From a virus, in the IMG/VR virus record IMGVR_UViG_3300030202_003023, positions 1-64,000 of that record: a stretch of DNA of 64,000 bases. One strand, written 5' to 3'. The first letter of the stretch is position 1. Every line of letters starts with the position of its first letter. The notes below the pieces were generated by a model, which searched no databases, was not told where the DNA came from, and saw only the letters and a list, made by a program, of their open reading frames with translations. Both the position numbers and the translations under genes were made by a program. Below, piece by piece: positions 6,939 to 27,227 of the stretch.

Positions 6939-7943
6939 ATGTATGGAAAAAGAGAGCTTACAATAGAAAACGTTAGAAATAGAGTTAATAGCTTTGATTT
7001 GTTTTCTTACTATTGTTCAACTTTTAAAGATATAAACGTAAGATTTTGCAGTGAATTAAGAGATGATAAATATCCAACATGCTGTATATATGCTTATAGT
7101 AATAAACTTTTCTATAAAGACTTTGCAACGGGTGATTCTTATGATGATATTGGGTATATTAAGGCAAAATATAATGTAGATTTTTTTACAGCTTTAGCCT
7201 ATATTAATAGAGATTTTAATTTAGATTTATGTGCAAAAACTTTAGAAGGAACTCCTACAATGCAGTTCTTTGGAGTACCAGATAAATCAATTAATCTTAA
7301 AAAATACATAAAGGAAACGTCTGTTATAAAAGTACAGGTAAGACAGTGGGGAGAAGAAGACAAATCTTTTTGGAAAAATAAATATGACTTTACTTCAAAA
7401 CAACTTAATTTTTACAAAGTATATCCAATAAAATTCTTTTGGATAAATGAAATAATGTATAGTTGTAAAAAGAACAGTTACGGTTATTATTTAGGAAATA
7501 GACAAGGTATTGCAAGATGGAAAATATATCAACCTTTGCAGCCTAGAGAAAGTAAATGGTTTTCAAATATAAATAGAGAAGACGTACAAGGAGTTACTCA
7601 ATTACCAGAAACAGGAGACACTCTATACATAACTTCAAGCTTAAAAGACATCATAGTTTTACGTAAACTTGGATTAAGTGCCGTTGCACCAAGTGCAGAA
7701 ACTACTATCATACCAGAAGATATTATCACTATGCTGAAAATAAGATTTAAAAAGCTAGTTATTTTCTATGATAATGATAATCCAGGTATAGTTGCTTCAA
7801 ATAAGCATTCAAAAATATATGGAGCAAGTGAAATATGTATACCTTTTAAACATTTATCTGAAAGCATAAAAGACCCAAGTGACTTTGTTGAAAAATACGG
7901 TTACGAGAAACTTTTAAATGTTATAAAAACAGAAGAAAAATGA
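6939..7943 (+). CDS. DnaG-like primase (TOPRIM domain)
   Basis: Makes RNA primers for replication. The N-terminal ~110 residues resemble the DnaG zinc-binding/primase entry region (RDDKYPTCCIYAYSN, then LFYKDFATG) but without a full CHC2 zinc motif. A TOPRIM fold follows at about residues 225-290: ITSSLKDIIVLRKLGL, a SAVAPSAET strand, then LVIFYDNDNPG with the DxD pair near 277-279. The Glu expected in the first TOPRIM strand is Ser here, a variation that I believe also occurs in other phage TOPRIM primases. No helicase domain is fused, consistent with the separate DnaB-like gene. Starts right after a terminator; the last 4 bases (ATGA) overlap the next gene. Confidence 0.8.
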   Translation: MYGKRELTIENVRNRVNSFDLFSYYCSTFKDINVRFCSELRDDKYPTCCIYAYSNKLFYKDFATGDSYDDIGYIKAKYNVDFFTALAYINRDFNLDLCAKTLEGTPTMQFFGVPDKSINLKKYIKETSVIKVQVRQWGEEDKSFWKNKYDFTSKQLNFYKVYPIKFFWINEIMYSCKKNSYGYYLGNRQGIARWKIYQPLQPRESKWFSNINREDVQGVTQLPETGDTLYITSSLKDIIVLRKLGLSAVAPSAETTIIPEDIITMLKIRFKKLVIFYDNDNPGIVASNKHSKIYGASEICIPFKHLSESIKDPSDFVEKYGYEKLLNVIKTEEK

Positions 7944-8083
7944 ACGAAAAACAAAAAGAAATATCACCAGCAGAAAAAATAATAGCATTATTTTTACACT
8001 TGAAAAAAACTATTCCAAATGATAGAGAGTTTGGTACAAAAATGCGTTCTGTAATGGATGCATTATTAGAAAAGAAAGCATAA
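7940..8083 (+). CDS. hypothetical small protein, 47 aa
   Basis: Not recognised. A short basic helical protein (begins MNEKQKEISP, ends ALLEKKA) with Lys-rich ends. The evidence for it being real is arrangement: the start overlaps the primase stop as ATGA and its stop overlaps the resolvase start as TAATG, filling the gap exactly between two good genes. Confidence 0.65.
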   Translation: MNEKQKEISPAEKIIALFLHLKKTIPNDREFGTKMRSVMDALLEKKA

Positions 8084-8457
8084 TGATATTTATAAGTGGA
8101 AATGTTCCAAGTAGTAAAAATAGCAAGCAATGGACAGGTCGTATGCTTATAAAATCAAAGACCACCTTGCGCTATGAAAAAGCTACTAAGGAGCAGTGGG
8201 AAGAAAACAAAGAAACATTCCTAAAATTGATTGATGGTAAGACCGTACCATATCAAATAGGATTTTATTTTGTGAGGGGAACTAGACATAAATATGATTG
8301 GGTTAATCCTGTTCAAACTATACAAGACTTAATGGTACGTTATGAGTGGTTAGAAGATGATAACATCACTATAATGTATCCAAAGCCTTTTAAAATAAAA
8401 GGTAAAATGGGACACTATGATAAAGGATGTCCTGGAGTATATATTAAAGTCTTTTAA
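8083..8457 (+). CDS. rusA: RusA-like Holliday junction resolvase
   Basis: Structure-specific endonuclease that resolves branched DNA. RusA-family features are visible: the N-terminal GNVPSSKNSKQ segment, a KYDWVNPVQTIQD element giving D72 and D82, and the LEDDN pair (D92, D93) that completes the acidic metal-binding site in DxxNxxKxxxD...DD order. The usual Lys of that element is Gln here. Length of 124 aa is normal. Translationally coupled to the 47-aa gene upstream (TAATG). Fits with Sak4-like and SSB proteins as a recombination-linked replication set. Confidence 0.8.
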   Translation: MIFISGNVPSSKNSKQWTGRMLIKSKTTLRYEKATKEQWEENKETFLKLIDGKTVPYQIGFYFVRGTRHKYDWVNPVQTIQDLMVRYEWLEDDNITIMYPKPFKIKGKMGHYDKGCPGVYIKVF

Positions 8458-8706: not shown

Positions 8707-8934
8707 ATGAGAAAAGTTACTGTAGTATCTACCGCAACAGGTGGAAAGAATGAAGTTTTATCAAGTGCAACTACTTGGGGAGAATTAAAAGGTCAAATCT
8801 CTGAATATATGACAGGTGAAATGAAAGTTACTGTTAGAGAAACTAGAAATGATTTATCTAATGCAGATGCAATTTTACCTGAAGGTGATTTCACTTTATT
8901 CTTATTCCCTGTAAAAGTTAAGTCAGGTAGATAA
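8707..8934 (+). CDS. ubiquitin-like modifier (beta-grasp, Ubl)
   Basis: Small beta-grasp protein, 75 aa, interpreted as the modifier of a phage ubiquitin-like pathway. The start at 8707 is chosen over an in-frame ATG at 8614 because the longer version overlaps the previous gene and adds 31 unrelated hydrophobic residues. Beta strands MRKVTVVST and MKVTVRETR, a WGELKGQI helix and a terminal strand (FTLFLFPVKV) fit the fold. The C-terminus is KSGR, so an exposed Gly would require removal of one Arg. E2-like, JAB and E1 genes follow within 3.3 kb, which is the main support for the assignment. Preceded by an A/T leader; its stop overlaps the next start (TAATG). Confidence 0.75.
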   Translation: MRKVTVVSTATGGKNEVLSSATTWGELKGQISEYMTGEMKVTVRETRNDLSNADAILPEGDFTLFLFPVKVKSGR

Positions 8935-9089
8935 TGGCTAAGAAAAAGAACAAAGTTACTGTTACACATCCTTTTTCTTCTGTAGAAGAGCACTACAAAC
9001 ATTTACAAAAAAAGTATGATACTTATTTTAATGAGCGCTTAGAAAAACTAGAAGAAATAGGAAAAGAACTTCGTGCAGATATTAATTAA
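8934..9089 (+). CDS. hypothetical small protein, 51 aa, coupled to the Ubl gene
   Basis: Not recognised. Very basic N-terminus (MAKKKNKVTV), then a helical stretch with coiled-coil character (FNERLEKLEEIGKEL). Its start overlaps the Ubl stop as TAATG, so the two are probably translated together. It could be a Ubl partner or substrate, but no sequence feature proves this. Confidence 0.6.
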   Translation: MAKKKNKVTVTHPFSSVEEHYKHLQKKYDTYFNERLEKLEEIGKELRADIN

Positions 9090-9098
9090 ATCAATAAT

Positions 9099-9129
9099 AA
9101 GAGAGGGCTACATGTCCTCTCTTTAATTT
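9099..9129 (+). terminator. hairpin between the Ubl pair and the E2-like gene (weak terminator or attenuator)
   Basis: Perfect 8-bp stem, AAGAGAGG at 9099-9106 with CCTCTCTT at 9116-9123, 9-base loop, followed by a short T-rich tail (TAATTTT). It has terminator geometry but a broken T run, so partial termination is likely. It would give more Ubl mRNA than enzyme mRNA, which makes sense for a modifier. Confidence 0.5.
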
Positions 9130-9136
9130 TAAATTT

Positions 9137-10354
9137 ATGGGAGAAGCAGAAGATGAATTTGCAGAAGCAGAAGCATTATTACAACAGCTGCAATCAGAAG
9201 AAGAACAAAGAGAAATTCAAGCACAGCAAGAAGTTGAAGTTATTGAACTTAATGATACCAATACAATGGAAATTGCACCAATACAACCAGTAGTAAAAGA
9301 AGAGCCAAAAGACACAGATGTTATAGCTTTTTTGAATAAACGCGTTACTGAAATGGCAACATTGTTAAACGCTATATATCCAGACAATTGGCACATATAC
9401 AGAAACCAAGAGTATATAAAACAAAATCCGTTTTTAAACAAGGTTATAACTGATGATGAATATCACACTAATCATACAATAATTGCAATTAGATTTCCTG
9501 AAATAACTATTACTAACACTAGAGGACATAGTAATGTAATTAAAGATTTATTTGTGTTTATGAGCATGTGTATTTATAAAGGTTCAGCACCTGAAAGTGA
9601 AGCTATTATTATGTTTGATAGTAGAATGTGTGGTACTAGATCAACTTTAAGAGAAGAAGAGTTTAATAGTAATTATATACATTCTCATCTTCCTAGACGT
9701 ACTTCATCTAGCAGTGTAGAAAAACCATATACAGCTAATGTAAATGTTAGTTATTTTTGTTTAGGTGGAGGTACTGAAACATCTGCAGCTTTAGCTGATT
9801 TAAATTACAATTTTGATATACTAAAGTTTGAATTGTTTTTATATCAGTTGTCTACGTATGTTACGCATGAAAGCTTAGGAGGCGGTCCTTACATTAGAAT
9901 GGATAGTATAAGAATGGGATCAGGGCCTAGATTTAGTTCAGAAAATAACAATAGTTGTAAAAGTACATTTTTTCACTATGTTGATAAACTTGATTCTTTT
10001 CCTCTTAAATCTTGTGTTAAAGATGGAGAAAACGCACTTGTGTATGATGAAAACAACGAAGAGCATTTAAAAGTGCTAGGTAAACTAACTGATTACCCTT
10101 ATGAAAGGCTTGAAAATAACAGATTAGTTCCTTTTACTGAAAATGTAATAACTAAAACTGAAGAACAAATTAAAGAATTAGAAGGATTGATGTTTGATTT
10201 TAGGGGTGAATCAGTATTTTTTAAAATAACACCTTATCCTAAATCTACAATAAAAAACCCTATTAAGTATCCTTCAAACAAGTTGTTGTCTTATATATCT
10301 TCTTGTATTAATAATAATATTAAAACATTTAATTCATTGCTTTATGCAGAATAA
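9137..10354 (+). CDS. putative E2-like conjugating protein of the Ubl pathway
   Basis: Proposed ubiquitin-conjugating (E2-like) enzyme. Residues 1-65 are acidic and disordered or coiled (Glu/Gln/Ala-rich). The next ~150 residues have an E2-like pattern: strands HTIIAIRFPEITITNT and VIKDLFVFMSM, then YIHSHLPR (H182, H184) and a Cys in YFCLGGG (C208) as the candidate active-site cysteine. HSHL followed by CLG is a pattern I associate with prokaryotic E2-like families found beside JAB and E1 genes. The C-terminal ~180 residues show no known domain. The 3' end overlaps the JAB gene by 11 bases. Placement between Ubl and JAB/E1 is strong context; the fold assignment from sequence alone is moderate. 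Confidence 0.6.
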   Translation: MGEAEDEFAEAEALLQQLQSEEEQREIQAQQEVEVIELNDTNTMEIAPIQPVVKEEPKDTDVIAFLNKRVTEMATLLNAIYPDNWHIYRNQEYIKQNPFLNKVITDDEYHTNHTIIAIRFPEITITNTRGHSNVIKDLFVFMSMCIYKGSAPESEAIIMFDSRMCGTRSTLREEEFNSNYIHSHLPRRTSSSSVEKPYTANVNVSYFCLGGGTETSAALADLNYNFDILKFELFLYQLSTYVTHESLGGGPYIRMDSIRMGSGPRFSSENNNSCKSTFFHYVDKLDSFPLKSCVKDGENALVYDENNEEHLKVLGKLTDYPYERLENNRLVPFTENVITKTEEQIKELEGLMFDFRGESVFFKITPYPKSTIKNPIKYPSNKLLSYISSCINNNIKTFNSLLYAE

Positions 10355-11486
10355 AAAAATTTTAAAAAAGTATGAAGAGCATACTTTACCAGAAAATTCT
10401 ACTATCATATTAAGTCAGAATTTATTAGACCAAGTAGACTACTTACATAAAGTAGTTGGAAAAGTAGAATGGAGTGGTGTACTTGTTTATAGAACTATAC
10501 AAGGCTCTATTGAAAACTATAAAAAGTTTGTAGTAGAAGCTGTAGAAATTCTTCCTATGGATGTAGGTACATCAGGATACACTGAATATGAAATAGAAGC
10601 AGCAGATGAGTATGTGTTTAAAAACTTACTTGAAAGAGTAATGCTAGATGATGATTTAAAAATAGGTCATATACATACACATCATGGTATGGATTGCTTC
10701 TTTTCAGGTACAGATATGTCAGAGTTGCATGAAAATGCTCCTAATCACAACTACTATCTGTCTTTGATTGTTAATTTTCAAGACTACACTAATTGGAAAG
10801 CTAAGATTGCACAGATTAAAACAATGAAAACAAAAGGTTCTGCAGTGTATTCTTACAAAGGTACTAATGGTACAGTTGAAGAAAAAGTATCATTAAATGG
10901 TGAAAAAGAAATTATGTCTTTGATTAATTTAAAGATAGAGCCTGAAACTACTTTAGAAGATGAGTTTATAAAAAGAGTTAAGGAACTTAAAACAGAACAA
11001 GATAAGTTTGTTAAACAAAAGCCTTTGACAGGTAACACTGATTGGACTGGTTATTACGGTAAGCCTACTGAACAAGCTACTTTGTTTGATGTACTTAATG
11101 AAAGCCTTGCTCCTGATTCTGATGACTTGTCACGTGTTTTTGTAGATGTTTCTGAAGAAAGTATAACTATGTTTTCTTTAAAGCTTCTTGCTCAATCTAC
11201 TGAACCTTTAGGTAGTTTAGAAAATACTTTAAATGTTTTAGACCAAGCTTTTTTAAGTGAGGAATACGGTGCTATGGATTACTATATGGAAACTATAGTG
11301 GATAATTTTGATGCGTTGTATTTAGAGCATTTTAAAACTACACCTTCTACAGTATCTAAAAAACTTGTTGTTGAAAAAGTAGCTGAAGTTTTAGAGAAAT
11401 TTGAAGAAAAACATAATTACACATCAGCTTTAGTTGAAACTACAATTGACACACTAAGGCTAGATCTTATTTTAGAACAAGAATAA
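10344..11486 (+). CDS. JAB/MPN-domain metallopeptidase (putative Ubl-specific protease)
   Basis: Zinc isopeptidase/peptidase of the JAMM class. The full metal-binding motif is present: E42 in KVEWSGVLVYR, HTH at H111 and H113, exactly seven residues, then SGTD (S121, D124). Known roles in this family are removal of ubiquitin-like proteins from targets and trimming of the modifier's C-terminus, both fitting the Ubl with a KSGR end. The catalytic domain takes up roughly residues 15-190; the remaining ~190 residues are helical and unassigned, perhaps a partner-binding region. Overlaps the E2-like gene by 11 bases and is followed after 13 bases by the E1 gene. Confidence 0.85.
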   Translation: MQNKKILKKYEEHTLPENSTIILSQNLLDQVDYLHKVVGKVEWSGVLVYRTIQGSIENYKKFVVEAVEILPMDVGTSGYTEYEIEAADEYVFKNLLERVMLDDDLKIGHIHTHHGMDCFFSGTDMSELHENAPNHNYYLSLIVNFQDYTNWKAKIAQIKTMKTKGSAVYSYKGTNGTVEEKVSLNGEKEIMSLINLKIEPETTLEDEFIKRVKELKTEQDKFVKQKPLTGNTDWTGYYGKPTEQATLFDVLNESLAPDSDDLSRVFVDVSEESITMFSLKLLAQSTEPLGSLENTLNVLDQAFLSEEYGAMDYYMETIVDNFDALYLEHFKTTPSTVSKKLVVEKVAEVLEKFEEKHNYTSALVETTIDTLRLDLILEQE

Positions 11487-11499
11487 AAAATAAAAAAAA

Positions 11500-12237
11500 A
11501 TGGAAGATACAAATCAAATGGTTTCTATTGAAGGCGTAAATACAAATGAAAATGAAATAAATCTGAATCCTAGACATGCTAGGTTTTCAGATTTAATGTG
11601 GTATGATTCTAATAATCCTCCTCACGCACTTGTTGGTGGCGTGGGAGGTATAGGTTCTTGGCTATCTTTTTTACTAGGTAGAATGGGTTGTCATCTTTAT
11701 TTGTTTGATAATGATGAAATTGATGAGACAAATATGGGAGGACAGCTGTACCAACCTTCTCAGATTGGTATGACTAAAGTAGAAGCTGCACATCTAAATA
11801 TCTATAATTTTACTGGTAACAGTGATATAGAGACTTTTAGCAAGTACACTGAAGAATCAGAGTTTTGTCCTATAACATTTTCTTGCTTTGATAATATGAA
11901 ATCAAGAAAGATTATGTTTGATATATGGGCAAATAGCCATGACGGTAATGGTATTTTCATTGACGGTAGAATGCTTGCAGAGTCTTTTCAGATTTATGCA
12001 GTACTTCCTGGAAGTGAAGATAAGTACAGAGAAACGTTATTTGATGATAGTGAAGTTGAAGAGCAACCGTGTTCTGCAAAAGCAACTTCACATACTGCAG
12101 CTATGATTTCAAGCATGATGGTAGGTATATTTACAAACTATTTATCTAATATAAAAACAGAAATGAATATTAGAGAAGTTCCGTTTTTTACCAGCTTTGA
12201 AACACATTTACTAATGCTTAATTTGGAATTACAATGA
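11500..12237 (+). CDS. E1-like ThiF/MoeB-family adenylyltransferase
   Basis: Ubl-activating enzyme that would adenylate the modifier's C-terminus. Rossmann ATP-binding loop GGVGGIGS (residues 46-53), LFDNDEIDETN with D70 and D72, GGQ at 80-82 where the usual Arg-Gln has become Gly-Gln, and K93. The D131-N132 strand end and QPCSAKATSHTAA (C191 as candidate thioester cysteine) match E1-like enzymes of prokaryotic Ubl systems. At 245 aa it is a single-domain E1. The loss of the ATP-contacting Arg is the main oddity. The leader is nearly all A; the stop overlaps the next gene by ATGA. Confidence 0.85.
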   Translation: MEDTNQMVSIEGVNTNENEINLNPRHARFSDLMWYDSNNPPHALVGGVGGIGSWLSFLLGRMGCHLYLFDNDEIDETNMGGQLYQPSQIGMTKVEAAHLNIYNFTGNSDIETFSKYTEESEFCPITFSCFDNMKSRKIMFDIWANSHDGNGIFIDGRMLAESFQIYAVLPGSEDKYRETLFDDSEVEEQPCSAKATSHTAAMISSMMVGIFTNYLSNIKTEMNIREVPFFTSFETHLLMLNLELQ

Positions 12238-13271
12238 ATATTGATTTTAGTGATAAAAGACCTGAGCAATTAGTAGATGATTCAGGCAAGTTCTCAAATT
12301 TATTTACTTTTAACTTAGATAGAACCTCATATTTAAGGCATTTAACTATAAAAACATCTGATTATGTACCTTTGTATTCATTGGGGTTTTTTAAACCTGC
12401 ACGTGATTACAGTGTGATGCATTCTAGTAGATTTATTGGGTATAATGATTTTACTGAAATTACAAAAAACTATTTAGTTAAAATTAAATACTATAAAAAA
12501 CAAGACGGTCAGATAAAAAACAGTATAATAAATAGATTTCTTGATAATAATATTGGTTCACATGATTGGTATGTATTAAGGGGTGAGTATTCTTCTAAAG
12601 AATTTAATTTAGAGTTAATTGACAAAGAGATAGAAATACATAAGGAGAATTTAAAAGAAGTAAAGGAAAAATTACTCTGCAATTCATCTTCTTTGTCTCT
12701 TGGTAATATATACCCAATGTATGGAAGGGCTTCTTATTCTAATGTTTTTAATAGTGTTAATGGATTAGGACGTGGTTATTATGGATCAAATCTTTTTACA
12801 AGCGCTGCACATTCTTTAAGAAATGCAGATTATTTAACTAACCTTGGATTTACAGCAAAATTTAATTCTAATAATATAGAAGTTCTTTTTTCTTATATGG
12901 TAAAAGTAGAAATGATTCCTTATATTAGATTATGTATGCTCTTAGGAGAAGAGCCTCATCCAGACAGTTTAGAATTATGGGTTAATGATACATTAGATGT
13001 ACCTAGAGGCCCACATAAAAACATACGTCCAAGATACCGTAAAGAAGTTAAACTTTTTGCAGAAAGTAGAGGCATTAAAATAGAAGAATCTTCTAATTTA
13101 AATGCAGACATTTTTAAGTCATATAAGTTACCAACTTTTAAAAATATGGTAGAAAGAAGACAGTGGTATAATTTTATAGGCAGCGCTGTTTTAAATGGGA
13201 TGAAAAAAAGCAGAAATGGAGACGGTTTTAAAATAAAAGGCGATAAAAAAACAATTAAATTAAAATTATGA
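12234..13271 (+). CDS. hypothetical protein, 345 aa, coupled to the E1 gene
   Basis: Not recognised. A soluble, basic protein with many aromatic residues; a helix-rich coil (DKEIEIHKENLKEVKEKL) near residue 130, a Gly/Ser/Tyr-rich middle, and a basic C-terminus (GDKKTIKLKL). No catalytic motif seen. It shares ATGA junctions with both the E1 gene before and the exonuclease gene after it, so it is translationally coupled to the Ubl cassette. It may be a target or specificity factor, but that is inference. Confidence 0.75.
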   Translation: MNIDFSDKRPEQLVDDSGKFSNLFTFNLDRTSYLRHLTIKTSDYVPLYSLGFFKPARDYSVMHSSRFIGYNDFTEITKNYLVKIKYYKKQDGQIKNSIINRFLDNNIGSHDWYVLRGEYSSKEFNLELIDKEIEIHKENLKEVKEKLLCNSSSLSLGNIYPMYGRASYSNVFNSVNGLGRGYYGSNLFTSAAHSLRNADYLTNLGFTAKFNSNNIEVLFSYMVKVEMIPYIRLCMLLGEEPHPDSLELWVNDTLDVPRGPHKNIRPRYRKEVKLFAESRGIKIEESSNLNADIFKSYKLPTFKNMVERRQWYNFIGSAVLNGMKKSRNGDGFKIKGDKKTIKLKL

Positions 13272-14026
13272 GCAAAACATTGTTAATAGATGGAGATTCT
13301 TTGATGTACTATGAAGCTTTTAAAGAACAATCAGAAGAGAAGGCTATAGAAAGTATAAATAAAAGACTCTTATACATGTGTGAGCAAAACAGTGCTGATA
13401 GATATCTTGGATTTTTGACTAAAGGTAGTTGTTTTAGATATAAAGTAGCAAAATCAAAAGGCTATAAAGAGTCAAGACCAAGAGAAAAACCAAAACTTCT
13501 TTTACAATTAAGGGATTATTTACAAAACACACTTAAGTTTGAGATAGTACCACAACTAGAAGCAGATGATTTAGTCTGTTATTGGAATAATCAATTAGAA
13601 GAGGAGACAATTATTTGTTCTCCTGATAAAGATGTTTTGAAACAAATACCAGGAAAGCATTATAATTATAGATGGACAACAAAAACTAGAGGTTGCTGGG
13701 TTACTACTTCTGAAAAAGACGCTGAAAAATTCTTATGGCAGCAAGTCTTAATGGGAGATTCTACAGATTCTATACCAGGATTACCTGGAGTAGGAGAAAA
13801 GACAGCACTTAAGATTCTTGAGAATAAAGAATCACCTCTAAGTGGTTGTGATAAAACTTATAGTGCACTAGTACTGGGGGAGTACGTTAAAGCATTTGGA
13901 ATATCTGAAGGTATAAGCAGGTTTGCTGAGACTTTTAAATTAGTATATATGCTACGTACTCCAGAAGACGTGAAGAGAGAAACTGATTTGGTGCTAGAAA
14001 AGCCCCAGATTAAGTTATTGAGGTAG
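13268..14026 (+). CDS. 5'-3' exonuclease / flap endonuclease (FEN family)
   Basis: Removes RNA primers and 5' flaps during phage replication. FEN-family signatures in order: N-terminal LLIDGDSLMYYEAF, PQLEADDL at about residue 100, the SPDKD metal-binding element at about 120, and GDSTDSIPGLPGVGEKTA at about 170-190, combining acidic metal ligands with a helix-hairpin-helix DNA-binding turn. Length of 252 aa is normal for a T7 gp6/T5-type enzyme. It provides the 5' nuclease missing from the short phage family A polymerase. Starts with ATGA overlap on the upstream gene. Confidence 0.92.
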   Translation: MSKTLLIDGDSLMYYEAFKEQSEEKAIESINKRLLYMCEQNSADRYLGFLTKGSCFRYKVAKSKGYKESRPREKPKLLLQLRDYLQNTLKFEIVPQLEADDLVCYWNNQLEEETIICSPDKDVLKQIPGKHYNYRWTTKTRGCWVTTSEKDAEKFLWQQVLMGDSTDSIPGLPGVGEKTALKILENKESPLSGCDKTYSALVLGEYVKAFGISEGISRFAETFKLVYMLRTPEDVKRETDLVLEKPQIKLLR

Positions 14027-14043
14027 AATTTTTTATAAAAATT

Positions 14044-14841
14044 ATGACTAGTACTATAAAATGTGATAAAGTGGGAAAAGTAGTAACTGTTAAAGTATAT
14101 TCATCTAGACAGTTACACCTTCTTCCAATTTATAAAGGAGGAGAAGTTTATGACGACAAAGGAAACCTTGTAGAAATAAACTATGATGATGAATTTTTAG
14201 TAAAAGTAGGAGAAACGGTTTCTATTAAAAGACATAAATATAAAATACAGAAAATTACTAAGATGGTTAGCTTAGAAGGTATTCATGTATCAGGTTATTA
14301 CTTGCATACATCTACTTTAAGCAAATCTTCTATGTTTGTGTTTCCTTTGTTAGGCTATACTCGTACTTTTTTTGAATGGAATTCTAGTTTTATAAACTCT
14401 TTTATATGGAAAGAAGGCGGTGAAGAAGGTAGGTTTATTTATTTATGGTATAAATTTGTACCATCTTTAGAGATGGAAGAATTTGAAGAAAAGCTAAAAA
14501 ATAATATAAACTTTATAGATGCAGAAGATGTTGATGATTATCATGTATTGTATAGATTTATGGTTCCTGAAAAATTTGAAAAAGATTATGATAAAATTAT
14601 AAAAGGAAAATACTCTTACATTACAGAAAGTGCAAAAGAACGTATACTTGATTTTCATTTTTCTAGTCCAGACAGACCTATAGGTAAAATACTTTATAGA
14701 GATCCTGAAAGAAGAGAAAAGATGGAAAAAGAGTTAGGAATTAAAATTCCTGAAGAGCAGGATTTGCATGATCCATTTTATAAAGAAGAAGATACTTTCT
14801 TTAATAGGTATAAAATAATAAAATCAAGACTTGGATGGTAA
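14044..14841 (+). CDS. conserved-looking phage hypothetical protein, 265 aa
   Basis: Function unknown. The N-terminal ~90 residues are beta-rich and may form a small barrel; the second half (FIYLWYKFVPSLEMEEFEEKL, YRFMVPEKFEKDYDKIIKGK) resembles a family of uncharacterised proteins often found near replication genes of Bacteroidota phages, but I cannot name it. No membrane segments or catalytic motif. Overlaps the uracil-DNA glycosylase start by 7 bases. A/T-only leader. Confidence 0.75.
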   Translation: MTSTIKCDKVGKVVTVKVYSSRQLHLLPIYKGGEVYDDKGNLVEINYDDEFLVKVGETVSIKRHKYKIQKITKMVSLEGIHVSGYYLHTSTLSKSSMFVFPLLGYTRTFFEWNSSFINSFIWKEGGEEGRFIYLWYKFVPSLEMEEFEEKLKNNINFIDAEDVDDYHVLYRFMVPEKFEKDYDKIIKGKYSYITESAKERILDFHFSSPDRPIGKILYRDPERREKMEKELGIKIPEEQDLHDPFYKEEDTFFNRYKIIKSRLGW

Positions 14842-15530
14842 AAAAAGAAAATTTTGAACCATTGATGGACATTGGCTGGCTAGAACATCTCTGGCCAGCT
14901 TTGTCTTCATCAAAAATGAAGAGCAACTATGCTCTCATTAGTAATGAAAAGAAGAAAGGGTATCATATATTTCCTAAGTATACAGATACTTTTAATGCGT
15001 TTAAGTATACTCCTTGGAATAAAGTAAGAGTAGTTATACTTGGACAAGATCCTTATCACACAACAGGTATGGCACATGGATTAGCTTTCTCTACACAGAG
15101 TGATCTTACACCACCATCTCTAAGAAACATATTAAAAGAAGTAGAAGATGACGTGTATGAAGGCTTTAACTTACAGAGAAGCGTAACAAATGATTTAACT
15201 AGTTGGGCTGAACAAGGTGTTTTACTTTTAAATACAGCTTTAACAGTTAAGTTAGGGTGGCCAGGCAGTCATTTGCACCACTGGGAAGATTTTACTGCAC
15301 ATACTTTAAAAGAATTAAGTAGGTGGAAAAGCGGTGTAGTATATTTGTTGTGGGGAGCAAAGGCACAAGGATTTAAAAAATACATTAATACAAAACAAAA
15401 CCATGTTTTAGAGACAACACATCCGTCTCCTTTTTCTGCACATAAAGGGTTTTTAGGATGTAAGCACTTTTCTAAGACAAATGAGATATTACGGAATATG
15501 AACGGAAAAGAAGAAGAAATTGTATGGTAA
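14835..15530 (+). CDS. ung: uracil-DNA glycosylase, family 1
   Basis: Cuts uracil bases out of DNA. Diagnostic features: the water-activating loop GQDPYH (residues 70-75, catalytic D72), LLLNTALTV (131-139) with the uracil-binding Asn, and the DNA-intercalation loop HPSPFSA (196-202). Full length (231 aa) and all key residues present, so it should be active. In a phage it implies thymine-containing DNA; probably repairs cytosine deamination in the AT-rich genome. Overlaps its upstream neighbour by 7 bases and the downstream 59-aa gene by 7 bases. Confidence 0.96.
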   Translation: MVKKENFEPLMDIGWLEHLWPALSSSKMKSNYALISNEKKKGYHIFPKYTDTFNAFKYTPWNKVRVVILGQDPYHTTGMAHGLAFSTQSDLTPPSLRNILKEVEDDVYEGFNLQRSVTNDLTSWAEQGVLLLNTALTVKLGWPGSHLHHWEDFTAHTLKELSRWKSGVVYLLWGAKAQGFKKYINTKQNHVLETTHPSPFSAHKGFLGCKHFSKTNEILRNMNGKEEEIVW

Positions 15531-19300: not shown

Positions 19301-20067
19301 TTTTTTCTTTCTAATTGGGCTATTTTATCTTTTACAATGGCTTTTGCTTTTGAGACTAATCTTTCTTTTTCAGTAAGTTGCTGATGATTAGGTCCTTTTG
19401 CTTTTTGTAAATAAAACTCTTCTTCTATAACACCTTTTAATTCAGATTCATGTACATGTTCTGATAAAAGTTTAGAAGCTAAATACCTAGCTTCATTTCT
19501 TTCAATACCTATAAGCTCTTTTAATTTTCTAAAAATACCATTTAACCATCTTCTAAAAGCAGATTGCTTTTCTTCATTAGAAAAAATTTTACTTCCCTCT
19601 ATACCTATTGCTCTTGCTAGTATTTCTTTGTCTTGCTTTTGTTTAGGTTCTTCAGCATATTCTTCTCTTACTTCTTTTTCAATTGTTGATCCTTGTAGTC
19701 TTGCAATACCTGCTTTAATTATAGGATTTTCTAACCCTCCTAATAAATCTATAAAAACATGTCCAAATTCATGTATAATAGTATCTCCTTGTAATAATTC
19801 AGGATTAATCTCTACTCTTGCTGTTCTTTCCCCTTCTCTAATTACTTTACCAGAAACATCTAAATCTGAATTTATTACAACAGAAACTCCAGGTAACACT
19901 CTTTGTAGACGTGTAACTAATTTATCTATTTGCCCCATATTAAATTCAGGGATACCTTTAGCTGCTTTTTGATCTTCAGCCCATATACGGTAAGCTTCTT
20001 TTGTATTTCCGTCTAATTTAGCTACTAAGTTTTTCCACTCTTTACTCTTTTTATTTGGACAAATCAT
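16357..20067 (-). CDS. giant virion (cargo) protein with N-terminal zincin-like peptidase motif, 1236 aa
   Basis: Last gene of the - strand block and one of three giant proteins around the virion RNA polymerase. Near the N-terminus is a zinc-metallopeptidase motif, IIHEFGHVF (HEFGH, residues 99-103), with acidic residues downstream (EILARAIG) that could supply the third ligand. Residues ~230-480 are coiled-coil-rich. Near the C-terminus are hydrophobic helices (AALVVSCIIAQMILSGLA), then an Asp run. In crAss-like phages, proteins in this position are packaged and ejected with the DNA. The start overlaps the RNA polymerase stop as ATGA. The peptidase could process virion proteins, but I cannot tell whether it is active. 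Confidence 0.75.
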   Translation of the reverse strand: MICPNKKSKEWKNLVAKLDGNTKEAYRIWAEDQKAAKGIPEFNMGQIDKLVTRLQRVLPGVSVVINSDLDVSGKVIREGERTARVEINPELLQGDTIIHEFGHVFIDLLGGLENPIIKAGIARLQGSTIEKEVREEYAEEPKQKQDKEILARAIGIEGSKIFSNEEKQSAFRRWLNGIFRKLKELIGIERNEARYLASKLLSEHVHESELKGVIEEEFYLQKAKGPNHQQLTEKERLVSKAKAIVKDKIAQLERKKITTDEDTDVSHQLNLLELKLEEYETEQALLAYVTKADGQLDYINLKFKEYALAYDTNKEVPELDTIKYLRDTAQGYDIALIEDIQRELADQDLTEVMNKITTSIRQLEESYKKLGDKYIKNVIKPDITIIRDIFKRRAELEFVKDENFKKLRGQERVDKLEEFTDKYLKENEQEIKDATEKYLDDFLDIVQKDISIWASFVQNPKDISNDIIQTVSLWIDEADFKTRMESIALVKEAESLYADYIAYFGKKNNPKEQWEPFLSKNSDGSLAPRIISNSRDIEGDLEKWKEIKQGKYKNTAVEDLYDFIVKTQNESDKKIPKTFRLGKKLSVVNKNFYERVADTGILKAIKEGTIDLFKLRKEDTGFGVIEETDAAAKKSLTDTIKVLVKGGQEKKLIPIHFRGEETIKDDERSFDVLSLIILEAHQANNYANKFTLTNKVEYVLDRVKEATVYDRGYKNLLKVDQYDEIQIKEGDSNVYKALQSLIENRIYDVKMTGDPTVNKVVASVRKYVSITNLFGNYLSGGSNLLQGLSMVFMEGAGGSFYGKRNVISAAGKYRKDSINIAADVGRRQDLSKTNLLVELFNANSADSILNEAFSKNNVFKRELSIGSGLIANSTAEHWAQSIGMYAVLDNIKVKNKDGKYINKKGEVVEDRKDAMSLDEAYSVGYQNKKTKKTISNDTYNGLSAKEKKNYFVGVLHLNEKVASTDRSDDLNLFKISSVIRRINRELFGNYDRENKSKFERTAVGSLVTHMRQWMLPGLYKRFRGHKTLWIRDKVENKKNILDFIPLRTIRNTELREHIDLHYNHETQSFEEGMYVSTLRYISGNLKNLLKLKLSIVAADWNNLTLMEKKNIHRTISEAALVVSCIIAQMILSGLAEDDDDDFVILLLTFYARRLQAELLTYVDPREWQRTFRSPAVSLNLLEGTVDALMQIVFDPTERYERGKHKDKNKAVVKLKKITPWKALFRDPKETLKWYQN

Positions 20068-23000
20068 ATATCACATCTTTTAAGTATTTCTTCAAACTCT
20101 GCATTTCTTCTAGCTTTTTCGTAGCTATCTGATAGATTTCTACTTATGCCTTCTCTTAGTGTACTTGCTATTTCCTTAGAGCCAACAAGTCTAAAGCTAC
20201 TTATTGCAGCGGCTGCTTCTTTGTTTAAAGGGTCTATTTTGTTTTCTTCAAATATAGTACCTGAAGAATCAAATATACTAACATTATCATTAGACAATAT
20301 AGTTTGTACACCATATTCTTTAATTGCTTTTCCTGCTGAATTAAATCCTAGTTTAGGTATTTGTCTGTATACAGCAGTGTTACTTTTGGTATATCCTACA
20401 AGTTTAAAAAGATTGCTTTTTGAATCTCTTACATATCTTGCATATTCTACTTCACCAATATCATTTTTTCCTATACTAAAATCAGTACTGTTATTTAAAG
20501 CAAATAATTTATTTGTACTTATCCCTTTACCTAAAGGTTTTTTGTCTGTATTAGGTACTGTTTTTAATATTCTACTATTTTCAGATAAATGTTTAATGAT
20601 AGTTTCTTCTGCTTTTTCACCAAGCAATCCAGGATATCCAGCTGCTGTATTAAGATCATTCATAAAAGATACAAACCCTGATTTTATATAAGTATTAGTA
20701 GGGATGTATTGGTAAAAACTAAATAAGTTTCTGTTAAATCCTGTAGCATGAAAAGCGTATTTTACTAATTCATCTGCCAGTTCTTCATTTACTTCATACA
20801 GTTCTTCCCATGCTTGTTGGTATAGTTCTCTGTCTTGGTTTTTGTTTCTAAACTTAATATAATCTAATCCAATACCAATACTTTCATCTTTAAAAATAAT
20901 AGTCATATCACTTAAAAGAAGGTTATTTTCTACAAAAGTAGGATTTGATCTTTTAAATCTTTCCATTTTTCTGGCGGTGCTTTCTCTACCAAAAAACAAA
21001 GATTTAAAATTACCGTCTGTAATACCAGCTAATTCAGTACTAGCAATATAAGAGTATATTTCATTTGAAATATCATCAATAGCTTTACTGTCATGTATCT
21101 TATCAGGGTTAACTGCAAACAATATATTAAATAAGGTACTTCTAACTGCATTAGATGACATTAAAGACATGTTAGAAAACATTTTGTTTATCTGCTGTAT
21201 TGCATTTTTATGGTAGCTACCTACCATTCTACTGTCATCAATGTTAAGATATCCTCCAGGACCTGTAATTTGTCCGTTTATTTCTACAACTCCAAATGCT
21301 TTTTGTACATTTTCTATTTTATTATCTGCAATAACTTTAGCAAGATTTAATTCTCTTATGTATGCTTCAGTTAAGTTTTTACCTATTGATACATCTGATT
21401 TAGCGGCTCTAATAACTTCATTTAAATCTTTAGCTTTTTCTTTATAGTCAAGAAAAGCAGCTAATATTAAAGCTTCACGTCTTGGAGATGCTGCAAAAGG
21501 ATTTTCTACCATTTTTTCTAAATCTTCTAATGATAATTTTCCTATATTTTTTAGTGCTGTTTTTTTGATTTCATTAAATCCGTTTTTAAACGTGTCTATT
21601 CCACTTTGTTCTAAATCTTCATTTATTTCTAATATAAGCTGATCTTCTCCTAAAAGTCTTCTTCCTTTTTTGTCGTATGATTTTTTTGCAACTTTACTTT
21701 CATCTTTGTTCTTTTTTGTTACCAACCTACGTAGTACAGGTTGTCCAATAAAAGCATTTACCCACTTTATAGGTACTCCTGCTCTTAACAACATAAATGC
21801 TACAGGAGCTGTATAATTATTAATATTGGCTTTTGCTATGTACGGATCTTTAGCTGCATCTACAATAGCGTTCATATACAAACTTAGCCAATTAGATACT
21901 ACATTACCTTCTGTATCTGATATACTTGATACGGGACTTTTACCATCTACTATCTTACCTACACCTAAATACTCAGAGTGTAGTAAATTGTCCATTTGTG
22001 TAGAGTTATGGTGGCTTAAGTGGTTGGCAACAACTCCTACAAGACCTTTAGATTGGTCAAATAGTACTTTAATTTTTCTTTGAGTAGTCCCTTTAAAGAA
22101 ATGTAAGTTATTTCCAAATTCTGTGCTTTGGTCATACAGTCCTTTAGCTGCATCTTCCAATACTGGACTATCTAAAGAAGCCATAGCTGATGGATAAGTT
22201 TTTACATCAGTAAGTAAAGCCTGCATTAAGTCTAATCTATAGTTTTCTAATGCGGCATTAGTATGCCTTTTAATAGCTGGATAATTTTTAAACTCTTCGT
22301 AAGTAGGCATTACCTTTTCTTCTTGTAGTTTAGCTATTACAGCTTTTTTATGAGCATCATTTAACTCTTGTAATTCTTTTTTTATACTTACTATACTATT
22401 TTTAATAGTTTTAGCATCATCTAAAGTAAACTCATCTCCTAGATCTATGCCTTCACTTATAACGTAGTCTACAGACTTTTGTATTTGATCTGCATATTCT
22501 AGTAATTCAGTAGAATACAATGCTGTAAATTCTTCTTCATTTGCTATTTTGCCTAAAGCAGCTTTAATTCTAGCTTTTTTAGCAACAAACTTTAAAGCGT
22601 TTTGTATTTTAATCTTTTTTGATTTTTCAGGAGATTCTAGTTCAGTAAAAAGTTCTCTTGCTCTTACTGATTTTAACCAGTCTTTTTTAGTTTTTTCTTC
22701 GTAAGCCTCTTCTACAGTCATTTCATGCTGGTATCTTGGTCTAGTTATTTTACCGTCTCTGTATTCTATATTAGGCATTACTACAAAAGCTTTATCAATA
22801 TCAAAGTCAGACCCAGTTTTTGCAGTGATTTCATTGTATGCTATAATAGTATCTCCCATATGACTTGGAAGTATACCTACAATTTCAAAAGAATCATTAG
22901 ATGATGTAGCCTGGTTAGGAATACGGTAACTAATACCTTCAAGTGCAGAAGGATCAATTGCATCTTTTATCTCTTGTGGAGTCATTGACTTGTACTTAGG

Positions 23001-26000
23001 ACCTATTAAATTTAATAAAGCACTATGTGCTATAAGTACTTGAGCTTTTTTAGTGTAAAATACCCCTTCTTTTTCTTCTAGCTTCATTGGACTTAGACCT
23101 TCTCTAGGGTCTTTGAACCATATGATGCCGTCTTTGGTCTCTTTATCTAAAGAAATAGTATCTTGTAAAGTACCAAAATTAGACATTTGTATAAAAGCAC
23201 CTCCTGTTTGTTTTAATTTTACAGAAGCTTTTAATACTTCTGCTGCTATTTTGTTTTCTAGTTTTTTTCTAACTGCAGGCATTGCATCTATTGATACTCC
23301 TGTATCTAATAAAGCTTTTTCAGAATTAGTTAATTCGTCAGTAAGTGCTTTACTTAAAAAATCATTAAATTTTTCTTTGTTTATAGTTCCATTTAAATGA
23401 AATCCAAAAGTCTGCTCTAGTTTATCTTTACCTATTTTAGATAATTCTGAAATTACTCTATGATATTCAGCAACTAACATTTCTCCTGTCATTTGCTGTG
23501 TAATTCCTCCAAAGTTTACTTCATAAAATCCATTTTTTAATATTTGAGAAAGTAAATTCTTTACTAGCTGAGAACCTACAAGAGTGTCGTCCATCCCTTT
23601 AGCTTTTAAATCTTGCTGTAAGTATACGTACTTAGTCTTTAGTTGAACAAAAGGCATTTCTGCAGCAACTAATTGGTCTCCATCATTTATTTTAGTAACA
23701 CCACTAGCTCCAACTTTTTTACCATCTATAGTCACAAAATGGTCTGTTTCTGGATTAGCTTCTTGTAATGCGTCTAATGCAGCAAACATTCCAGGAACTA
23801 TAACAGCTTCAGACTGTTTATGGTAATGTGTAGTTCTGTGTCCGTGCTTAAGTACAGGCTCAACATGTACAGTTTTTATAGGTTGCATAAATAGCTTAGT
23901 GTCTTGAAATAAAAGCTCTCCGTTTTTTAATCTGTTATAAGCTTCTTCATGTTCATCACTCCATTTAGACCAAGATAACATTCTCTGTCTGTATAAGTCT
24001 AAAGTAATCCAAGCTTGAGCATCTGCAATATTTATGTTTTTATACCCTTTTACCCATTCAGTAATTTCTGCTGCAGTAAGTTGTTCGTCTTTTTCCTTGC
24101 CCATGTTAAAGGCTTTGGTCATTCTATCAATTAAGGCTGTATTGAGGTTTCTTTTGCTTAATTCAGCTAACATTTTATCTCCAAAAACTACATTGCTAGG
24201 TATTGGAAATTTACCAAACATATCAGCTAATTCTTTTAGACTTTTCTTATTTAAATTAACGTCTGAATTATAAGGTATAATAAAATTTTTATCAGGATTA
24301 TCTCTTGCTACTTCATAAAGTTTTTCAATTTCAGTAAGCATTTCTGCTTCATTTTTAGGAGTACCTATTTTTAATCTTCCGTTTTGAACAGACGCATTTT
24401 TAGTTACTAATCCGTATCCAGTACCTTTATTACCTTCAGTTAATCCAACTTCTCCAGCAATAGCAAAATCGCCTACTTTTTTACTCTGAATGTCATTAAC
24501 TAAATTAGGATTCCAGCTACGGTAGTTTTCTGTAGTGTTTGCATAAGCTAAAGCTGCAACACCTTGTCCATGACCGCCTGCTGAATTTGCTCCAAATACC
24601 ATAACATCGTTTTCTCCAAACATTTCTTGAGAAACTTGGTCTTCAAATGCAGGAGCAGTCTGTTTTGTTTTTCTAGGAAAAAAATAAGCTGAAGGAGCAA
24701 TAACTTCATCTGTAACGCTTGTAGTATAGGTAGGTTTTACATCACCATAAATTCTAGACATAGTACCCCCCGCATTAACAAAAGATGCTCTCTTTTTAAA
24801 ATCAGAAAACAAATCTAAAGGTTCTCCTGTTTCCTTGTTAGTTTTAGGTTTAAATCCAGCAGGATCACCGTGGAATAACATAGTCATTTCAATACTACCA
24901 ATTATACTATTTAGAGTATAATCTGCAGCAGCTTCTCTTATGTCATCATATCTAGCAGCAACAGTAGTATCAATTGCTTTATTCACAGCAACTACTTTTT
25001 CTCCTTGCTGTGTAATGCTAATAACATCAACTTCTTCTAATACTTGTAAATCACTTTGTACAGCATTTACAAAAGCTCTTCTAATTCTTAGCCTAAGTTC
25101 TTTGTTGTTACCAGTTTCTTCTGTAACTTTTTTTGCTACTTTTTTACCATTTATAGTTTCAACTAATCCTAATTCTTCTAAAAGCGTTTCTCCTTCTTCG
25201 TTAGTTTTACTAAATTCAGGAAACAAATAGGATTGTAATAAATTTCTGTCTGTATGTAAGTATTCTATGTACTCTGATTTATCAATTTTATTTTCACCGT
25301 ACATATTTTCATAAATTAACCTCATCCTGGTTAATTCAGCTTTAAAGTACTCCATTAAAATATTAACAGCATTGTCATTACTAACTGTTATTTTTCCTTG
25401 TTCGTTAAAAGTTAATCCAGCTTTTTCAAACTTACCGCCTTTCATAGCAACTTGTTCCTGCTTATCTGCTTCTGCAATACCTGTATAAACAGCCGTTTTA
25501 TTATCCATTAAATGAATATTTACATCAGCTATAATTGCTTCTATTTCAGAAAGTTTACTAACTTTTATACCTTGGTCTCCTTTATCAAGACTTTTAAAAT
25601 TATTAAAAACAAAAGTTCTTATTTTTCTACTTGGATCTTCTTCCATCCAATTTAAAGTTCTAGAAATTGAACTCCAAACAGCACTTCTTATTTCACCTGA
25701 AGCTTTTTCAAAGTCAGTATTAAGTTCATTTACTAGTTGTGAAATTAAAGAAGGGTCACTATAAAGTGAATATTGATTACCTTCTGGACCTAATGTAGTA
25801 GCGTCACCAAAATTAAACATTACTTCACCTTGTCTTATTGCTAAAGTTGTTATTATTTGGTTGTCTTCTATTACGTTATTTCCTTTTCCTTGCTCTATAA
25901 TTGTATCACCGTAAAGTACTATTTCTTCTTTTTTAGCTGCTATATCATTAAACACTCCTTGCATTTCTCTACTAGTCAGCATAGCATGTACAGACATAGC

Positions 26001-27188
26001 AGTTGTAGCATTGCCGTATTCTTTTCTTAAAAAATTATTTAATCCAGGAGAAGTTAGTTCTATACCTATTACTTTATTAAAAAACTCTATGACTTTACTT
26101 TTAAGTACTTTAACGTCATTTTCACTTACAGCATTTCTTCTACCTGGTTTTTTTTCTTTTGTTTTTAATTTTTCAACTTCTTCTTTTAACTCAGCATATC
26201 TTTCTAAAATAGTTGTAAGTCTACCTCCTTTGTCACTTTCTTGGTAAAATGTCTTACTACCAACATCATTACCATTAATCATCTTAAAATTTTGAAACCA
26301 CTCTTCTTTTAACATTTCTGTTTTAGATGAAGGATCAGAAGTACTTATTCTATATTTTCTACCTTCTTCTGCTTCTTCAGTAACTAGAGTTAAATAAGAT
26401 ACAGATGCGTTAGCAAATACATTAAAAAAACTTGTTCTTAATTTTTCATCAAAAACTTGTTCTTCTTGTTTATTGATGATTTTTTGTTTTAGTCCATCTA
26501 CTACTCTGTTTAAATGTGGTTTAACTTTACCTTCCTCTTCTAGTAATTTAATCATTTTACCCAAAGTAGGATTGGCCATATCTGTTAAGATGGTTTGTAT
26601 ATCATTATACATTTGACCTTCTTCAACAAACTTAGGTGTCCCTAAAAATGTATCTGTATTGTTTACAGTTCCTCCTTTTGCACTTTTGACTTGTTCAGGA
26701 ATCATTGAAATAAATGCCCTTACTTGTGCGCTAGCTTTGCTTTTAGTAGTTAGAGTTAGTTTATTTTCTGTAAAAAAATTACCGTCTTCATCTTCTACTA
26801 AAGATTCAGATATTGAAATTCCTTTTGATTTAAAAAACTTTTTAACTTCTTGTACAAAGAAAGGAACCATTTCTCCTACTTCTTTAAATCTATCTCTATA
26901 AACACTGCCTGCAGGCTTGCTTGCTGATGCTTTTAATACCCAGTCTGTTAAAAGCTCTGTAAGATCCATATCAGCAATAGCTTCAACATTTCTACCTGCT
27001 GAAAGGTATACAAAGTATGCACCAGAATTAGTTATTTCTTTTTGCTGCCCACTAGTAAAACTAGAATCTACAGTGTAAGTAATTTCTCTTTGTAAATTGA
27101 CTCCCCTTATGTCATTATCCCTTAAATAATCTTTAAGTTCATTTTGATTTTGGAACTCTTTTCCTTTGTAATTTATAACACATTTCAT
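20064..27188 (-). CDS. crAss-like virion RNA polymerase, 2374 aa
   Basis: Single-chain DNA-dependent RNA polymerase carried in the virion to transcribe the first phage genes. The key evidence is the catalytic loop GSDFDIDKAF: D1461, D1463 and D1465 form the DxDxD metal-binding triad of two-barrel RNA polymerases, in the exact DFDID form known from Cellulophaga phage phi14:2 gp66, whose structure shows similarity to eukaryotic RNA-interference polymerases. This protein is somewhat longer than that ~2180-residue relative. The segment before the motif (ILPSHMGDTIIAYNEITAKT) matches the expected barrel strands. There is no sigma domain. It is between two other giant proteins and overlaps the downstream gene by 4 bases. 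Confidence 0.92.
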   Translation of the reverse strand: MKCVINYKGKEFQNQNELKDYLRDNDIRGVNLQREITYTVDSSFTSGQQKEITNSGAYFVYLSAGRNVEAIADMDLTELLTDWVLKASASKPAGSVYRDRFKEVGEMVPFFVQEVKKFFKSKGISISESLVEDEDGNFFTENKLTLTTKSKASAQVRAFISMIPEQVKSAKGGTVNNTDTFLGTPKFVEEGQMYNDIQTILTDMANPTLGKMIKLLEEEGKVKPHLNRVVDGLKQKIINKQEEQVFDEKLRTSFFNVFANASVSYLTLVTEEAEEGRKYRISTSDPSSKTEMLKEEWFQNFKMINGNDVGSKTFYQESDKGGRLTTILERYAELKEEVEKLKTKEKKPGRRNAVSENDVKVLKSKVIEFFNKVIGIELTSPGLNNFLRKEYGNATTAMSVHAMLTSREMQGVFNDIAAKKEEIVLYGDTIIEQGKGNNVIEDNQIITTLAIRQGEVMFNFGDATTLGPEGNQYSLYSDPSLISQLVNELNTDFEKASGEIRSAVWSSISRTLNWMEEDPSRKIRTFVFNNFKSLDKGDQGIKVSKLSEIEAIIADVNIHLMDNKTAVYTGIAEADKQEQVAMKGGKFEKAGLTFNEQGKITVSNDNAVNILMEYFKAELTRMRLIYENMYGENKIDKSEYIEYLHTDRNLLQSYLFPEFSKTNEEGETLLEELGLVETINGKKVAKKVTEETGNNKELRLRIRRAFVNAVQSDLQVLEEVDVISITQQGEKVVAVNKAIDTTVAARYDDIREAAADYTLNSIIGSIEMTMLFHGDPAGFKPKTNKETGEPLDLFSDFKKRASFVNAGGTMSRIYGDVKPTYTTSVTDEVIAPSAYFFPRKTKQTAPAFEDQVSQEMFGENDVMVFGANSAGGHGQGVAALAYANTTENYRSWNPNLVNDIQSKKVGDFAIAGEVGLTEGNKGTGYGLVTKNASVQNGRLKIGTPKNEAEMLTEIEKLYEVARDNPDKNFIIPYNSDVNLNKKSLKELADMFGKFPIPSNVVFGDKMLAELSKRNLNTALIDRMTKAFNMGKEKDEQLTAAEITEWVKGYKNINIADAQAWITLDLYRQRMLSWSKWSDEHEEAYNRLKNGELLFQDTKLFMQPIKTVHVEPVLKHGHRTTHYHKQSEAVIVPGMFAALDALQEANPETDHFVTIDGKKVGASGVTKINDGDQLVAAEMPFVQLKTKYVYLQQDLKAKGMDDTLVGSQLVKNLLSQILKNGFYEVNFGGITQQMTGEMLVAEYHRVISELSKIGKDKLEQTFGFHLNGTINKEKFNDFLSKALTDELTNSEKALLDTGVSIDAMPAVRKKLENKIAAEVLKASVKLKQTGGAFIQMSNFGTLQDTISLDKETKDGIIWFKDPREGLSPMKLEEKEGVFYTKKAQVLIAHSALLNLIGPKYKSMTPQEIKDAIDPSALEGISYRIPNQATSSNDSFEIVGILPSHMGDTIIAYNEITAKTGSDFDIDKAFVVMPNIEYRDGKITRPRYQHEMTVEEAYEEKTKKDWLKSVRARELFTELESPEKSKKIKIQNALKFVAKKARIKAALGKIANEEEFTALYSTELLEYADQIQKSVDYVISEGIDLGDEFTLDDAKTIKNSIVSIKKELQELNDAHKKAVIAKLQEEKVMPTYEEFKNYPAIKRHTNAALENYRLDLMQALLTDVKTYPSAMASLDSPVLEDAAKGLYDQSTEFGNNLHFFKGTTQRKIKVLFDQSKGLVGVVANHLSHHNSTQMDNLLHSEYLGVGKIVDGKSPVSSISDTEGNVVSNWLSLYMNAIVDAAKDPYIAKANINNYTAPVAFMLLRAGVPIKWVNAFIGQPVLRRLVTKKNKDESKVAKKSYDKKGRRLLGEDQLILEINEDLEQSGIDTFKNGFNEIKKTALKNIGKLSLEDLEKMVENPFAASPRREALILAAFLDYKEKAKDLNEVIRAAKSDVSIGKNLTEAYIRELNLAKVIADNKIENVQKAFGVVEINGQITGPGGYLNIDDSRMVGSYHKNAIQQINKMFSNMSLMSSNAVRSTLFNILFAVNPDKIHDSKAIDDISNEIYSYIASTELAGITDGNFKSLFFGRESTARKMERFKRSNPTFVENNLLLSDMTIIFKDESIGIGLDYIKFRNKNQDRELYQQAWEELYEVNEELADELVKYAFHATGFNRNLFSFYQYIPTNTYIKSGFVSFMNDLNTAAGYPGLLGEKAEETIIKHLSENSRILKTVPNTDKKPLGKGISTNKLFALNNSTDFSIGKNDIGEVEYARYVRDSKSNLFKLVGYTKSNTAVYRQIPKLGFNSAGKAIKEYGVQTILSNDNVSIFDSSGTIFEENKIDPLNKEAAAAISSFRLVGSKEIASTLREGISRNLSDSYEKARRNAEFEEILKRCDI

Positions 27189-27227
27189 AAGTAGGAATTT
27201 GTATAAAATTAAAAAATAAAACCTTGG

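Follow-up and report, generated by a model that had tools for sequence, protein, structure and literature searches.

The window analysed here, positions 1 to 64,000 of the 89,735-bp virus record IMGVR_UViG_3300030202_003023, carries at 8707-12237 a cassette of four genes, all on the + strand, which is probably a phage-borne ubiquitin-like protein-modification pathway, perhaps active in early or middle infection. The genes encode, in order, a ubiquitin-like protein (Ubl), a 405-residue protein with an invariant cysteine (the Cys protein), a JAB/JAMM metallopeptidase and an E1/ThiF adenylyltransferase. The original prediction had read these open reading frames (ORFs) as parts of a conjugation and deconjugation pathway: a beta-grasp protein of 75 residues, an E2-like protein with an HSHL...C208 pattern, a JAB with an intact HxH-x7-SxxD site and an E1/ThiF with a GxGGxGS loop and a candidate Cys. 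Positions and motifs proved correct, with the residues near-invariant in relatives, and the Ubl, JAB and E1 assignments held, as did the co-occurrence of the genes; for the E2-like protein the motif and its invariance stood, whereas neither an E2 family nor an E2 fold was matched. What is established is a conserved four-gene unit with a Ubl fold, intact E1 and JAB sites, an invariant glycine and invariant cysteines, and a universal tail behind the Ubl glycine. New relative to that prediction are this tail, which needs trimming, and LAGLIDADG elements in the JAMM site and the E1 ATP loop of two relatives.

Where a role has been assigned to a known bacterial ubiquitin-like system, it is mostly defence against phages (Bil, CBASS Cap2/Cap3). 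In the present case it is the phage that owns the whole four-gene set, fixed in its replication region, among relatives of the commonest human gut viruses. The assignment to a crAss-like phage, also made in the original prediction, is supported by the portal (40% identity to crAss001), the major capsid protein (39%) and TerL (30%), which are matched in the rest of the record in conserved order; crAss-like phages are kin of the most abundant human gut viruses.

Conservation of the cassette and its E1 enzyme

Two IMG/VR scans, with an E1 alignment and a JAB alignment, together with phage records gave 124 distinct loci. Because these were fetched by similarity to E1 or JAB only, the presence of the other cassette genes is informative. 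The order Ubl-Cys protein-JAB-E1, on one strand, was found in 115 of the 124, the other nine being cut by contig ends, and thus the search of relatives that had been proposed as a check came out in favor of a conserved unit. A homologous upstream gene, the primase, precedes the cassette in 113 of these 115, and a uracil-DNA glycosylase (UDG) family lies nearby in 68. Residue conservation was counted over 110-113 distinct relatives, and over 104 for C191 of E1.

The cassette is present in the cultured Bacteroides phage crAss001 as gp79 (Ubl), gp78 (E2-like), gp77 (JAB) and gp76 (E1), which makes the question directly testable; existing labels for two of these genes are "metalloprotease" and "thiamine biosynthesis". 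It recurs in DAC15, cr111_1 and cr128_1, all of which, with crAss001, are Steigviridae, Asinivirinae, and in Dulem virus 41, bajarodcaudo virus 1 and the Flavobacterium Fpv phages (cultured or complete records). In Steigviridae phages that carry it, the cassette lies beside primase and UDG. Our search of the open literature, with subscription papers and preprints outside it, returned no paper on the cassette in crAss-like phages.

The E1 has a GxGGIGS ATP loop, D131, R136 and C191, the last present in 104/104 of the sequences aligned there. It matches Pfam ThiF at 2.2e-17 (63.5 bits against a cut-off of 28.1), its profile finds human UBA5 as the best solved relative (1.2e-15), and hhalign pairs it with PRTRC ThiF at 9e-25 and 5e-19. 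With the GxGGxG loop, the ThiF domain and the downstream Cys, it belongs to the E1/ThiF superfamily. Assignment as a ThiF of thiamine biosynthesis was rejected, with adenyl_thiF at 37.7 bits against 275.25 and a further score of 50.8 against 159. Some relatives carry extra N- or C-terminal E1 regions of ∼100-140 residues (L018:6989-8134, L001:8767-9777 and L004:8629-9738) that have no counterpart in the window E1.

The Ubl tail and the JAB peptidase

An AlphaFold model of the Ubl, built on an alignment of 103 sequences, has a pLDDT of 83 and the element order b-b-a-b-b-b of a beta-grasp fold. In Foldseek against the PDB it matches ubiquitin, NEDD8, ISG15, MoaD and UBX domains with TM of about 0.6-0.7. 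Scans with Pfam, NCBIfam and PADLOC named no family for this protein, a PDB sequence-profile search with it returned noise only, and hhalign failed to match it to PRTRC C. The window Ubl ends in K-V-K-S-G74-R75, and G74, the predicted conjugation glycine, is invariant (110/110 distinct relatives). The protein therefore has the beta-grasp fold and conserved C-terminal glycine of a ubiquitin-like protein, though a tail follows the glycine. All 110 Ubls have further residues behind this invariant glycine: the tail spans 1-252 residues (median 123.5), with a single residue in 10 relatives including the window, where it is R75, five residues or fewer in 17, and 55 or more in 90. Given that the glycine is never terminal and that the E1 superfamily needs a free C-terminal glycine on its Ubl, trimming is required before the E1 can use the protein. 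The long tails (L003, L010, L012, L017 and other relatives) often have in common a helical N-Y-T...L..LL segment, to which no function was assigned and which JAB cleavage would free as a separate protein.

The JAB protein has the arrangement of a JAB/JAMM peptidase within a JAB domain, with E42 upstream of an intact H111-x-H113-x7-S121-x2-D124 site, followed by a variable C-terminal region. These residues are conserved in 112-113 of 113 distinct relatives. All 15 of the relatives aligned match Prok-JAB, the window protein's own match falling below the curated cut-off; the profile finds CSN5 among solved structures (2e-4), and PRTRC A by hhalign (2.4e-5). In one relative (L007:4645-6960) the JAB gene is interrupted within the JAMM motif (GGIHTH / MNCFFSGTD) by an insert of ∼1.1 kb that encodes a LAGLIDADG homing endonuclease on the strand opposite to JAB; Rfam recognized no known intron in this split gene. 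In another (L060:5788-7582) the E1 gene is interrupted in the ATP loop (GGAGGIG / SWLSL), and the insert carries a same-strand LAGLIDADG endonuclease. Homing elements tend to sit in the least changeable codons, and the two inserts are a further sign of constraint on these sites.

Comparison with the PRTRC operons suggests which enzyme does the trimming. We take PRTRC, from its gene order and Pfam names, to be group 6d of Iyer, Burroughs and Aravind. Of the five operon types described by Iyer et al. in 2006, 6d comprises Ubl, JAB, E1, an E2-like and a helical protein, and includes Bacteroides thetaiotaomicron (PMC1779556). From GTDB genomes and plasmids we collected 65 PRTRC loci; the genome scan used PRTRC ThiF, the PRTRC B alignment being too variable for it. 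In these loci (L187-L251, L029-L034) the Ubl, protein C, has a tail of 1-88 residues in 32 of the 35 that have the JAB gene (A), and ends exactly at the conserved glycine in all 30 that lack it, in which a check found no ORF with a JAMM motif (Fisher p = 2e-15, uncorrected). The E1 tree contains four supported independent contrasts; three agree with the link between JAB and tail, none oppose it and one is neutral. As PRTRC tails occur with JAB and never without it, we infer that JAB is the Ubl-trimming enzyme, and the same comparison suggests that PRTRC A is a Ubl-maturing peptidase. The JAB of a long-known but uncharacterised type of operon thereby gains a possible role. There is precedent in Bil, where the JAB protein BilC matures BilA by exposing the Ubl glycine (PMC11354881).

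Despite this kinship, the cassette cannot be filed as PRTRC, as the defining models are not matched. The two share the order Ubl(C)-[F]-E2(B)-JAB(A)-E1(ThiF), separate Ubl, E2-like, JAB and single-domain E1 proteins, a conserved glycine at the Ubl end, a mobile-element setting, and E1 and JAB proteins that are homologous by profile. In contrast, the PRTRC ThiF model TIGR03736 gives 38.9 bits against a cut-off of 144.75, with 0/10 phages above it; the phage Ubl and Cys protein do not match Prok_Ub or Prok-E2_D, for which the PRTRC controls were positive; and the DUF2016 JAB-N domain of PRTRC A is absent from 15/15 phage JABs. Among the genes examined no PRTRC E, F or ParB model of NCBIfam was matched, and the neighbors are instead primase, RusA, exonuclease and UDG. 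The phage cassette sits in a phage replication module, its Ubl tail is always present, and its Cys protein has the His before the Cys (HxH...C) rather than after it as in PRTRC B. The phage E1s also form a clade outside PRTRC, together with the Xanthomonas phage PhiXhv, in a tree whose long branches call for care.

With Bil (BilABCD) the cassette shares Ubl, E2, JAB and E1 in one operon and a JAB that in Bil exposes the glycine; however, there are two Ubl domains in BilA, and BilD combines an inactive with an active adenylation domain (PMC11354881), whereas the phage has one Ubl domain and a 245-residue E1. In PADLOC no Bil model was matched by P0001-P0004, which places the cassette outside Bil, and defence models match it at the generic E1 and JAB level only. 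We read the cassette as working like a PRTRC/Bil-type pathway while filing it under neither. A second phage Ubl system, a Ubl-E2-E1 locus, occurs in the Xanthomonas phages PhiXhv-12/15/16 and Erwinia phage Ep032 (L252:1742-5618 is PhiXhv-12). Its E1, annotated as thiamine biosynthesis in the jumbo phage PhiXhv-12, is the nearest outside the crAss group (5e-11; same clade, 99% SH-aLRT), and the system has an HPH...CLG Cys motif. It differs in that the PhiXhv-12 Ubl ends in GG, no JAB was detected and the Cys domain lies inside an 892-residue Cys-rich protein. A Ubl that ends exactly in GG where no JAB was detected fits the link between JAB and tail. A viral scan for relatives of this E1 found none. 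Lambdoid TAPI/TAPK likewise provide a phage-encoded Ubl and JAB, used in tail assembly (PMC1779556), but they lack E1 and E2 and belong to a tail module rather than a replication module.

The Cys protein, the proposed pathway and its alternatives

The Cys protein has three motifs, H182-S-H184-L, C208 within F-C-x-G, and E245-S-x-x-G249-x-P251, of which H184, C208, G210, E245 and G249 are conserved in 112/112 distinct relatives; a conserved, presumed catalytic Cys with a nearby His is what the E2/UBC superfamily has. It occupies the same operon slot as PRTRC B (Pfam Prok-E2_D). Profile comparison with PRTRC B aligns the Cys motif only, with an E of 0.003 for the trimmed region and a probability of 11%, and the motif score beats 60/60 column shuffles. 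The score against the PhiXhv protein (H-P-H...S-L-C-L-G) also beats 60/60 shuffles, as does that between PRTRC B and the PhiXhv protein. We hold with moderate confidence that this motif is a divergent E2-like active site. The AlphaFold model (pLDDT 85.7, pTM 0.76) has a helix, a strand meander, a loop with H182-S-H184 and C208, and two helices, an order of elements that in our reading may suit UBC. No Pfam or NCBIfam E2 model was matched and PADLOC scans gave no name; a PDB sequence-profile search returned noise only, and Foldseek against BFVD yielded, beyond crAss relatives, just six viral proteins without a name. An E2 role for the protein is thus weakly indicated by operon position, the invariant Cys and the motif match to PRTRC B and the jumbo-phage protein.

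In the pathway we favor, the Ubl would be made as a precursor with a tail after Gly74 (a single Arg in the window and as many as 252 residues in relatives), and the JAB metallopeptidase would cleave after Gly74. The E1 would then adenylate the exposed glycine with ATP, hold the Ubl as a thioester on Cys191 and hand it to Cys208 of the E2-like protein, from which it would be joined to lysines of phage or host proteins. Given that the cassette lies among replication and repair genes, the replication/repair machinery would be the most likely target; timing and substrate are guesses from location. JAB may also remove the Ubl from its targets. A wider reading, to which we give some credence while stopping short of calling it likely, is that a large crAss-like branch (Steigviridae, the Flavobacterium Fpv phages and many environmental relatives) has a self-contained, reversible Ubl conjugation in its replication module, with obligatory JAB maturation and a new E2 family, serving replication control or host takeover and not defence.

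Several observations weigh against the favored pathway. Foldseek of the Cys-protein model against the PDB found no E2 and nothing significant, and detectable E2 homology is limited to about 20 columns around the Cys. Few independent changes underlie the link between JAB and tail, and the contrasts are not numerous enough to reach significance (sign test p = 0.25); three PRTRC loci (L200, L207 and L214) have JAB without a Ubl tail. Neither an E3 nor a substrate is evident, and the searchable literature reports no conjugate in a phage of the group. E1 and JAB are absent from phi14:2 (Cellulophaga; Steigviridae), crAss002 (Intestiviridae) and cr10_1 (Suoliviridae), so not every crAss-like phage needs the pathway.

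The failure to match an E2 family or fold would be accounted for if E1 and Ubl acted alone, as in SAMP/Urm1-type conjugation, the 405-residue protein being, for example, a substrate-selecting ligase or a Cys-His-Glu hydrolase; the invariance of H184, C208 and E245 suits a thiol hydrolase as well. We consider such E2-less conjugation unlikely, given the slot shared with PRTRC B, the Cys-motif matches that exceed every shuffle, and the predicted element order that we read as UBC-like. The nature of the E1, nearest to single-domain enzymes of the ThiF/MoeB/UBA5 type, and its existing annotation as thiamine biosynthesis would agree with a sulfur carrier of the ThiS/MoaD or CysO-Mec+ type, in which the E1 activates the Ubl for thiocarboxylation and JAB frees a product, cysteine for instance; the JAB Mec+ works on a sulfur carrier. 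Such a system is very unlikely: every thiamine or MoeB equivalog score lies far under cut-off, the genes examined include no sulfurtransferase or thiamine gene, the set always has a dedicated Cys protein and the neighbors are replication genes.

It is also improbable, if a little less so, that the cassette serves counter-defence, modifying or stripping host immune proteins such as Bil, Bub or CBASS conjugates. Bacteria do turn such modifiers against phages (PMC10097602; PMC13373217). However, a pure eraser would have no use for its own Ubl and E1, the cassette is strictly linked to primase rather than placed in a variable accessory locus, and the PADLOC matches stay at the generic level given above.

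Gene layout and flanking genes

The original prediction had placed the cassette among recombination and DNA-repair genes, and the flanking genes identified bear this out (Table 1). Within the cassette the Cys-protein gene overlaps that of JAB, and the E1 stop overlaps the start of the 345-residue protein. The Lys/Glu-rich 51-residue ORF behind the Ubl gene had no family match.

Table 1. Coordinates in the window of the cassette genes and their neighbors
Feature	Position	Strand	Basis or remark
DnaG-like primase, upstream of cassette	6939..7943	+	Homologous upstream neighbor in 113/115 relatives
RusA-like Holliday junction resolvase	8083..8457	+	PHROG 1682, 5.7e-12
Ubl, 75 residues	8707..8934	+	AlphaFold fold, Foldseek PDB matches, invariant G74
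Lys/Glu-rich 51-residue ORF between Ubl and Cys protein	8934..9089	+	Outside the conserved set; uncertain as a gene
Putative E2-like transfer protein (Cys protein), 405 residues	9137..10354	+	Invariant residues, AlphaFold model, Cys-motif match
JAB/JAMM metallopeptidase, 380 residues	10344..11486	+	JAMM site, Prok-JAB matches of relatives
E1/ThiF adenylyltransferase, single-domain, 245 residues	11500..12237	+	Pfam ThiF, UBA5 and PRTRC ThiF profile matches
345-residue protein, function not assigned	12234..13271	+	Homologues adjoin cassette in 21 relatives
5'-3' exonuclease	13268..14026	+	Family scans
UDG	14835..15530	+	Homologous family near cassette in 68/115 relatives

Farther along the window, at 20064-39569, lie two giant minus-strand ORFs of 2374 and 4113 residues, which are of the size expected for crAss virion RNA polymerase proteins.

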